Source: Pygmaiobacter sp.
GTDB taxonomy: Bacteria; Bacillota; Clostridia; Oscillospirales; Ruminococcaceae
Assembly: GCA_028689835.1 (NCBI GenBank)
Contig: JAQVCK010000002.1
Location: 1 to 63,128 of the forward strand
DNA length: 63,128 nt
Direction of reading: 5' to 3'
The notes beneath the pieces are model-generated. The model was not told the DNA's origin. It was given only the letters and a program-made list of their open reading frames with translations, and ran no database searches. Of this stretch, positions 8,757-46,131 are shown piece after piece (the stretch's first letter is position 1; each line of letters starts with the position of its first letter). The position numbers and the translations under genes are program-made.

Positions 8757-8805
8757 CCGGCAGAGCAATATTTCACTTTTATCTTTTTTATGTAATCTGT
8801 TCGAT

Positions 8806-8925
8806 GCACAGGCAAAAACACGGCCCGGTTGGTAGTCCGGGCGCGGCGTGGCTTTGGCCCCGCCGTCAGTAACCTGCCTCCTTGGTTGTCCGGCCTGTGC
8901 AGGTTGTTCTTTAAGGAGGTTGTTC
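8806..8925 (+). ncRNA. yjdF-type riboswitch-like leader
   Basis: P1 GCACAGGC 8806-8813 / GCCTGTGC 8893-8900; internal hairpins CCCGG..CCGGG and CGGCG..CGCCG; anti-SD CCTCCTT 8877-8883 complementary to SD AAGGAGG 8913-8919; directly upstream of a YjdF-family gene. Confidence 0.7.
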
Positions 8926-44422: not shown

Positions 44423-44644
44423 CTATTTTTCCTCAATGGTATAGGTAAACTGGTACTGCTCTTGCAGCGCCTTTACCTTGGCCTCATTGTCTTCAATAAA
44501 GGTTTCGGTGTAAATCGACTTGCCCTGTTTCTGGTAATCTTTCACGATTTGATTCAGCTTTTCCCAGCACTCGGCATGCTTCGGCTCTTTCTCCTCGTCC
44601 ATCGAAATCACAAACTCGCGGTGTTTCGGAATACGTGCTTTCAT
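44423..44644 (-). CDS. Small hypothetical protein (73 aa)
   Basis: ORF with RBS-like gaagtgagg upstream, charged soluble composition. Confidence 0.6.
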   Translation of the reverse strand: MKARIPKHREFVISMDEEKEPKHAECWEKLNQIVKDYQKQGKSIYTETFIEDNEAKVKALQEQYQFTYTIEEK

Positions 44645-44714: not shown

Positions 44715-45818
44715 CTACAGCTCGGCGGCACCTGCCACCCGGCGGCGCAGCGGCACAAAGCCGTCCCCCGCCGCCTTTACGCTGCGCGCCACCTTGCGGT
44801 ACAGGGTGGGGCTGGTCAGTGCCGCGGCAATCAAATCGCCAAAGCGGTCGCAGCTTACCAGCCGGCAGCCCGGCGCCAGAATATCCACCGTGCGGTAGCC
44901 ATCGTCCAGTACTTTTTGTACGGCCTGCTCTATGGCGGCGCACTCGGCAGTCAACCCAAACGCATATTTTAACAGCATGGCGGCGGCAAATACCGCCCCC
45001 ACCGGGTTTGCAAGGTTTTGCCCGGCCATGTCGGGCGAGGGGCCCAGCACCGGGTGGTACAGCCCGCGGCTGCCCGCGCCCAGCATCGCGCAGCTCATCA
45101 TGCCCGCACAGCCGGTCAGCCCGGCGGCCTCCCCGGCCAAAAATTCGGCGCAAATCCCGTCTGCTAAAATCACGTCAAACTGCACCGGCTCGCGCAATAA
45201 CTGCGACGCGGTGGCCGAAGCGGTTTGTATCGACACCGACACGCGGGGAAACTGGTGTGCGGTGGTTTGCACCACCTCGCGCCACAGCTGGTTACAGTTG
45301 GGCGCGCCGGGCTGCTCTACAAACACCACCCCGCCCCGGCGCAGCTCGGCCGTGCGAAACGCAATGCGCGCGGCGCGCTCGGCCTCTGCGGCGCGGCAAA
45401 CCAGCGTGTCCTGCGCGCGGTCTTTGCCATGTTGCGGTGCGGGCTGCGGGCCGGCCATGCTGTCCAGCGCCTGCACCAGCATCAGGTCAATATCTCCTTT
45501 GACCAGTGTGGGGGCAAGGGGGCTTGCCTCGGCAAGCTGTGGGTACAGCAGTGCCGGGCGCATGCTGGCCTGCAAATGCAGGGCCGCCGTCAGCTGGCGC
45601 AGCGCTTCGCCGGTGCCAATGCCGGCCAGCACACTGTCGGCTGTGGTACAAACCGCAAGCTCGCTTTCCGCCAGCGGCGCGTTGGCACCGCCGCTAACCT
45701 CTATTGTTTCAAACCGGTGATTAAATTTTGAAGCGACCGACCGCAACACTTTGTCGGCTTCGGCCAGCACTTCGGCCCCAATCCCCGCGCCGGGTATCAT
45801 TGCAATTTTCTTTTCCAT
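44715..45818 (-). CDS. LeuB-like protein (isocitrate/isopropylmalate dehydrogenase fold), apparently catalytically degenerate
   Basis: IPGAGIGAEV; NQLWREVVQ; PVQFDVILADGICAEFLAGEAAGLTG; LGPSPDMAGQNLANPVGAVFAAAMLLKYAF. Confidence 0.82.
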   Translation of the reverse strand: MEKKIAMIPGAGIGAEVLAEADKVLRSVASKFNHRFETIEVSGGANAPLAESELAVCTTADSVLAGIGTGEALRQLTAALHLQASMRPALLYPQLAEASPLAPTLVKGDIDLMLVQALDSMAGPQPAPQHGKDRAQDTLVCRAAEAERAARIAFRTAELRRGGVVFVEQPGAPNCNQLWREVVQTTAHQFPRVSVSIQTASATASQLLREPVQFDVILADGICAEFLAGEAAGLTGCAGMMSCAMLGAGSRGLYHPVLGPSPDMAGQNLANPVGAVFAAAMLLKYAFGLTAECAAIEQAVQKVLDDGYRTVDILAPGCRLVSCDRFGDLIAAALTSPTLYRKVARSVKAAGDGFVPLRRRVAGAAEL

Positions 45819-45865: not shown

Positions 45866-46131
45866 ACAAAAAAGCCTCGTCTGCCGCCGGGGAAGGCGAG
45901 AGACGAAGCAGTTGCTCCGCGGTACCACTCTCATTGCCGCCGCAGCGGCCTCTTTGCCCCGTCCAGTAACGGGCGCCCGGTTAACGGCGGGCTGTGCCGG
46001 CAAGGCCTACTGTACTTCGGCCCGCTGCTCCCAGGGGACAGCCGGTGGTGCCGTTACTGCCTTGCACCAGCCGGCAGCTCTCTAAAAACGGGTAACCCAC
46101 AGGCAAAAACCTGTTCATCGCATTTATTGTT
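45866..46131 (-). promoter_or_regulatory. T-box leader (tRNA-responsive), probably Leu
   Basis: Minus strand carries AGAGAG, GGTGCAAGGCAG, GGGAGCAGCGGGCCGAAGTA, T-box GAGAGTGGTACCGCGGAG (45917-45932) and terminator GCTTCGTCT/AGACGAGGC + T6 (45868-45909). Confidence 0.95.

Follow-up and report, generated by a model that had tools for sequence, protein, structure and literature searches.

The gene at positions 44715..45818 on the minus strand of the window (the whole stretch of 63,128 nucleotides of Pygmaiobacter DNA analysed here) encoded a 367-aa protein that had the LeuB fold but a dismantled active site. Degenerate orthologs with the same losses and 64-68% identity were found in four other Pygmaiobacter species represented by metagenome-assembled genomes (MAGs), so that the carriers were G000 (the genome of the window), G001, G002, G003 and G006. 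The protein was almost certainly no longer a dehydrogenase. The gene probably had a new job, either non-enzymatic or at least different from the original one.

The LeuB scaffold and its active site

The open reading frame started with the ATG at 45818, ended with the stop at 44715 and contained no internal stops. The product matched the Pfam Iso_dh profile with E=1.9e-54 and scored 185.7 bits against PF00180 (the cut-off is 27), which together with the matching fold placed it in the isocitrate/isopropylmalate dehydrogenase superfamily as a member closest to LeuB. Its nearest solved structures were isopropylmalate dehydrogenases (IPMDHs; 3u1h, E=1.8e-66). Additionally, a monomeric AlphaFold2 model based on 32 sequences had a mean pLDDT of 83.8 and a pTM of 0.84, and the best 50 PDB matches listed by Foldseek were all IPMDHs, at a TM of about 0.8. 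These results agreed with a first-pass annotation of the sequence, which had described a full-length frame on a LeuB scaffold. On the other hand, the score against the NCBI LeuB equivalog TIGR00169 was 205.4 bits, below the LeuB threshold of at least 353 bits.

The roles of the IPMDH residues that contact the substrate, the metal and NAD or perform catalysis are well established. We verified each substitution in its column of an alignment of 32 sequences, where Thermus numbering was assigned by motif and 25 canonical LeuB sequences from related genomes served as the comparison set. The GDGIG Asp, R94, R104, R132, Y139, K185, D241 and D245 were present in 25/25 of the canonical sequences and D217 in 24/25 (with one gap), while H273 had a single Gly exception. 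From the eight substrate, metal and catalytic residues, R104 alone (R87 in the window protein) remained in the window protein and its four orthologs. In the window protein, the Asp of the GDGIG motif was replaced by A11, R94 by T77, R132 by Q116, K185 by Q169, D217 by S201, D241 by E225, D245 by G229 and H273 by L258, and the position of Y139 was located within a deletion. The five degenerate proteins had T, S, A or G instead of R94, Q instead of both R132 and K185, S or T instead of D217, E or A instead of D241 and G instead of D245, and the E87 (nicotinamide) loop was deleted. Hence, five species had lost both catalytic residues (Lys and Tyr), all three metal-binding Asp and two of the three substrate Arg. 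The Glu at position 241 was peculiar to the window protein, since the relatives carried Ala, and was thus not a conserved new acid. D278, N286 and D326, which lie on the adenosine side of the IPMDH NAD site, were invariant in all five proteins; H273 and E87, further NAD contacts, were both lost.

The changes at the GDGIG Asp, R132, Y139, K185, D217, D241 and D245 had already been listed by the first-pass annotation and were all correct, although it overlooked the loss of R94, the retention of R104, the deletion of the E87 loop and the H273 to L258 substitution. It had also named an intact Lys/Asp/Asp set elsewhere in the protein as a possible refutation. The phmmer and HMM alignments spoke against such displaced residues because they were collinear over residues 1-335 and the positions were unambiguous in strongly conserved blocks. 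Chance or misalignment was rejected as well, because four other species had the same losses. A functional IPM or 3-methylmalate dehydrogenase with unusual residues would be consistent with the overall fold and the retained R104. However, the Lys, the Tyr and the three metal Asp were gone in five species, and leuA/leuC and ilvC were not found in the same genome, making this explanation very improbable. The earlier opinion that ordinary IPM dehydrogenation was unlikely was backed by the orthologs, the dN/dS values and the predicted structure.

Selection and stepwise origin

The frame was open in all five species, and 203 columns were invariant across the degenerate proteins. Moreover, 57 family-specific switches (deletions included) were invariant in the five species, many of them around the old cleft. 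Since the window and its relatives were separated by a high dS (1.1-1.95), only close pairs were informative, and their dN/dS was 0.07 (G001-G006) and 0.25 (G002-G003). The neighbouring genes had comparable values in the same pairs, namely 0.07 and 0.31 for a histidine kinase, 0.02 and 0.05 for a response regulator, and 0.20 for TtcA. We were therefore highly confident that the gene was functional and under purifying selection. A pseudogene on its way out would account for the lost catalytic residues, the monocistronic arrangement and the seemingly auxotrophic host. Nevertheless, it was extremely improbable given the five open frames, the invariant columns, dN/dS values similar to those of the neighbours and a T-box that was conserved and in which nine pairs had changed on both sides. 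The homolog and dN/dS checks proposed in the first-pass annotation thus gave a clear answer: the substitutions and the T-box were conserved in four other Pygmaiobacter species, and the selection on the close pairs was unlike that on a decaying pseudogene. With its essential residues lost under purifying selection, the protein can be considered a pseudoenzyme that is presumably catalytically dead.

In a maximum-likelihood tree, the five degenerate proteins formed a single clade (100/100). Its stem had 1.6 changes per column while the branches inside were much shorter, a pattern that points to a burst of change followed by renewed constraint. Further degenerate members were not found among 299 genomes of the taxonomic family, and six short peptide patterns searched against 85,462 species genomes matched four Pygmaiobacter loci and no others. 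Two weak matches, G005 and G235, were rejected as extra members because the former was an intermediate and the latter an ordinary leuCDB operon.

The intermediate LeuB proteins were encoded in G004 (L041 6867-8033, minus strand) and G005 (L039 7266-8456, plus strand), and both had an active site that was intact except for D245G. From the 52 near-invariant LeuB columns lost in all five degenerate proteins, 38 remained intact in both intermediates. In the unrooted tree, the intermediates were placed next to the five degenerate proteins (branch support 94/89); the tree was drawn with a midpoint root, and the sister relation relied on this unrooted branch together with synteny, D245G and a shared tail, the C-terminal extension SPxxYRKxAR. 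In G004, leuB was followed by the same small conserved protein that was located downstream of the degenerate gene in the window (44423..44644, minus strand; 73 aa, MKARIPKHREF..., no Pfam match). This leuB was also close to the TtcA and group B1 [FeFe] hydrogenase genes, which in G002 and G003 neighbour the degenerate gene. This synteny supported an orthology between the intermediates and the degenerate genes. The homologs of the 73-aa protein were 96% identical between G001 and G006, and we used the gene as a marker of orthology and did not claim it as a part of the mechanism. In G005, the neighbour of the lone D245G leuB was a gene for the branched-chain amino-acid exporter AzlC.

The T-box was absent upstream of both intermediates but present at 5/5 of the degenerate genes, so it arose on the branch where catalysis was lost. 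Judging from these sequences, D245G came first, the other residues were lost wholesale along a single long branch, and constraint then returned. With slightly less than even confidence, we propose that bacteria which no longer make branched-chain amino acids converted a LeuB scaffold in steps that living species still show. D245G would have been followed by the remaining losses and the gain of the Ile/Val T-box, and the outcome would be either a new enzyme or a sensor that works alone and is induced by starvation.

The T-box leader and the branched-chain amino-acid metabolism of the host

A T-box leader RNA (RF00230) was located at 45896..46127 on the minus strand and scored 94.7 bits, with a gathering threshold of 93. 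It contained Stem I, a specifier and the T-box motif with the antiterminator (GAGUGGUACCGCG...; 45896..45930, minus strand). An intrinsic terminator hairpin with a T run (45868..45909, minus strand), competing with the antiterminator, was conserved in three relatives; in G001 the leader was cut by the contig end. Covariation was observed as well: nine pairs of the predicted structure had changes on both sides among the window and the three relatives, which was supportive but, with four sequences, not a proof. Thus, the T-box was intact over the gene, as the first-pass annotation had stated.

According to the alignment to RF00230, the specifier triplet in the window was GUC (Val; 46037..46039, minus strand), and AUC (Ile) occupied this position in G002, G003 and G006. 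The reading was calibrated on other leaders, for which we assigned the downstream genes by visual inspection of their sequences: GUC for valS, GCC for alaS, UUC for pheS, UGG for trpB and AUG for Met transporters, while leaders of canonical leuB/leuA read CUG (Leu). The base 3' of the specifier was C rather than a purine, which did not disqualify the reading because C also followed the specifier of the pheS leader in this genome. A Leu specifier was considered, since in the window a CUG precedes the homologous position by 2 nt, and was rejected; the relatives had no Leu codon there, and the homologous triplet was AUC or GUC. The proposed amino-acid-responsive leader was therefore intact and conserved, although its specifier was Val (Ile in the relatives) and not Leu, and uncharged tRNA-Val or tRNA-Ile would likely trigger production of the protein. 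Elsewhere in the window, an azaaromatic (yjdF) riboswitch aptamer was found at 8802-8909 on the plus strand (85.9 bits).

In G000, a fragmented MAG that was 94.7% complete, leuA, leuC, canonical leuB, ilvC and ilvD were not found, and ilvE was present. The ilvC gene was also missing across the searched genomes of the genus (fragmented MAGs), with the exception of one weak partial match in G003. The gut bacteria of this genus were probably branched-chain amino-acid auxotrophs, the absences being provisional in fragmented MAGs. The second leuB that the first-pass annotation had asked about was not found in G000, and a canonical copy existed in G003 and G006, where it was about 41% identical to the degenerate protein. 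In these two genomes leuA and leuC were not found, and a Leu (CUG) T-box preceded the canonical leuB and, after it, a gene for a CitMHS/MatC-N carrier (L037 5638-8324 in G006 and L038 6552-9219 in G003). This unit looks like a leucine-salvage system that takes up a 2-hydroxy or dicarboxylic acid, for example 3-isopropylmalate. In contig C191 of G000 (L083 285-1697), a GUC (Val) T-box was located upstream of an iron-containing alcohol dehydrogenase (Fe-ADH) family gene, perhaps serving 2-hydroxy-acid salvage for valine. Two other contigs of this genome, C29 (L070) and C97 (L059), had Leu T-boxes (CUC and CUG) upstream of apparent transporter genes, a CstA-type and another membrane transporter, identified by eye.

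Possible functions and comparison with known systems

The first-pass annotation suggested a new function or a regulatory or partner role. The gene was indeed retained and selected, but an obligate partnership with LeuB became less likely because no canonical LeuB was found in the genome of the window. Such a regulatory subunit would form a heterodimer with a live dehydrogenase (either canonical LeuB or Icd, whose gene adjoins that of aconitase), similar to IDH1 or IDH3-gamma. The same superfamily provides a precedent in the regulatory subunits of NAD-IDH, where the metal-binding Asp is replaced (PMC5241874), and G003 and G006 hold both LeuB types. However, canonical LeuB was not found in G000, G001 and G002 (MAGs that were 94.7, 85 and 91% complete), the identity to LeuB of G003/G006 was only about 41%, and Icd, although present in all five carriers, belonged to another subfamily and was encoded in an aconitase operon. 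We thus regarded a partner subunit as quite unlikely.

A new enzyme, using the LeuB scaffold for different chemistry in the salvage of Val/Ile from exogenous acids, was a somewhat unlikely but more plausible option. Its candidate residues would be R87, Q116, E168, Q169, D220, C223 and H255, which were fixed in the degenerate family. The family-specific switches around the old cleft were in line with this option. Since the host had ilvE and lacked ilvC/ilvD, keto acids could be used, and other T-box genes of the genus resembled acid-salvage dehydrogenases (leuB with the carrier for Leu, and Fe-ADH for Val). Nevertheless, a conserved acid pair for metal was absent, with E or A at position 241, no known enzyme motif was present and the nicotinamide loop was deleted.

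Our best reading, to which we give an even chance, was a neofunctionalised stand-alone LeuB pseudoenzyme that is induced by Ile/Val starvation and most likely acts as a homodimeric binder or regulator through the part of the cleft where the nucleotide side is retained. Uncharged tRNA-Val (tRNA-Ile in the relatives) would stabilise the antiterminator, and the protein would then be produced as Val/Ile run short. The remodelled cleft of the homodimer may hold a small branched-chain acid, an adenine nucleotide or dinucleotide, or both kinds of ligand. Rather than oxidising 3-isopropylmalate, the protein could signal or tune salvage or metabolism. The loss of the NAD contacts H273 and E87 counted against a binder or regulator, and the retention of the three adenosine-side residues could be structural.

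Neither a LeuB pseudoenzyme nor a T-box leuB with an Ile specifier was described in the open-access literature that we searched. The genus provided a rare graded series, from an intact enzyme through the loss of one metal ligand to a fully dismantled site, with regulation changed at the same step. The order of the conversion from enzyme to pseudoenzyme can thus be tested by reconstruction and assay. The series also suggested that gut amino-acid auxotrophs recycle remnants of lost pathways under an old class of amino-acid switch, and it cautioned that a leuB annotation in an auxotroph need not denote a dehydrogenase.

In comparison to LeuB itself (TIGR00169; PDB 3u1h, 3r8w and 2ayq), the degenerate proteins shared the fold, the full-length collinearity and 62/131 near-invariant columns that were retained in all five. 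They differed by the 52/131 columns gone in all five, including K185, Y139, D217, D241, D245, R94, R132 and the E87 loop, and by a score far under the equivalog cut-off. The regulatory subunits of NAD-IDH (yeast IDH1 and human IDH3 beta/gamma) were similar in the decarboxylating-dehydrogenase fold and in the loss of the metal-site Asp. In the eukaryotic NAD-IDH, the subunit that is deficient in catalysis is the one to which nucleotide and citrate bind. These subunits function in heteromers together with an active paralog, whereas a LeuB paralog was not found in the genome of the window, and a larger share of the active site was lost in the degenerate LeuB. Finally, T-box control of branched-chain amino-acid genes such as leuA and ilv-leu is known in Firmicutes (PMC2494555), and the leader described here belonged to the same RNA class with the same terminator/antiterminator layout. 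In contrast to those systems, its specifier was Val/Ile and the controlled gene was a degenerate leuB without the pathway.
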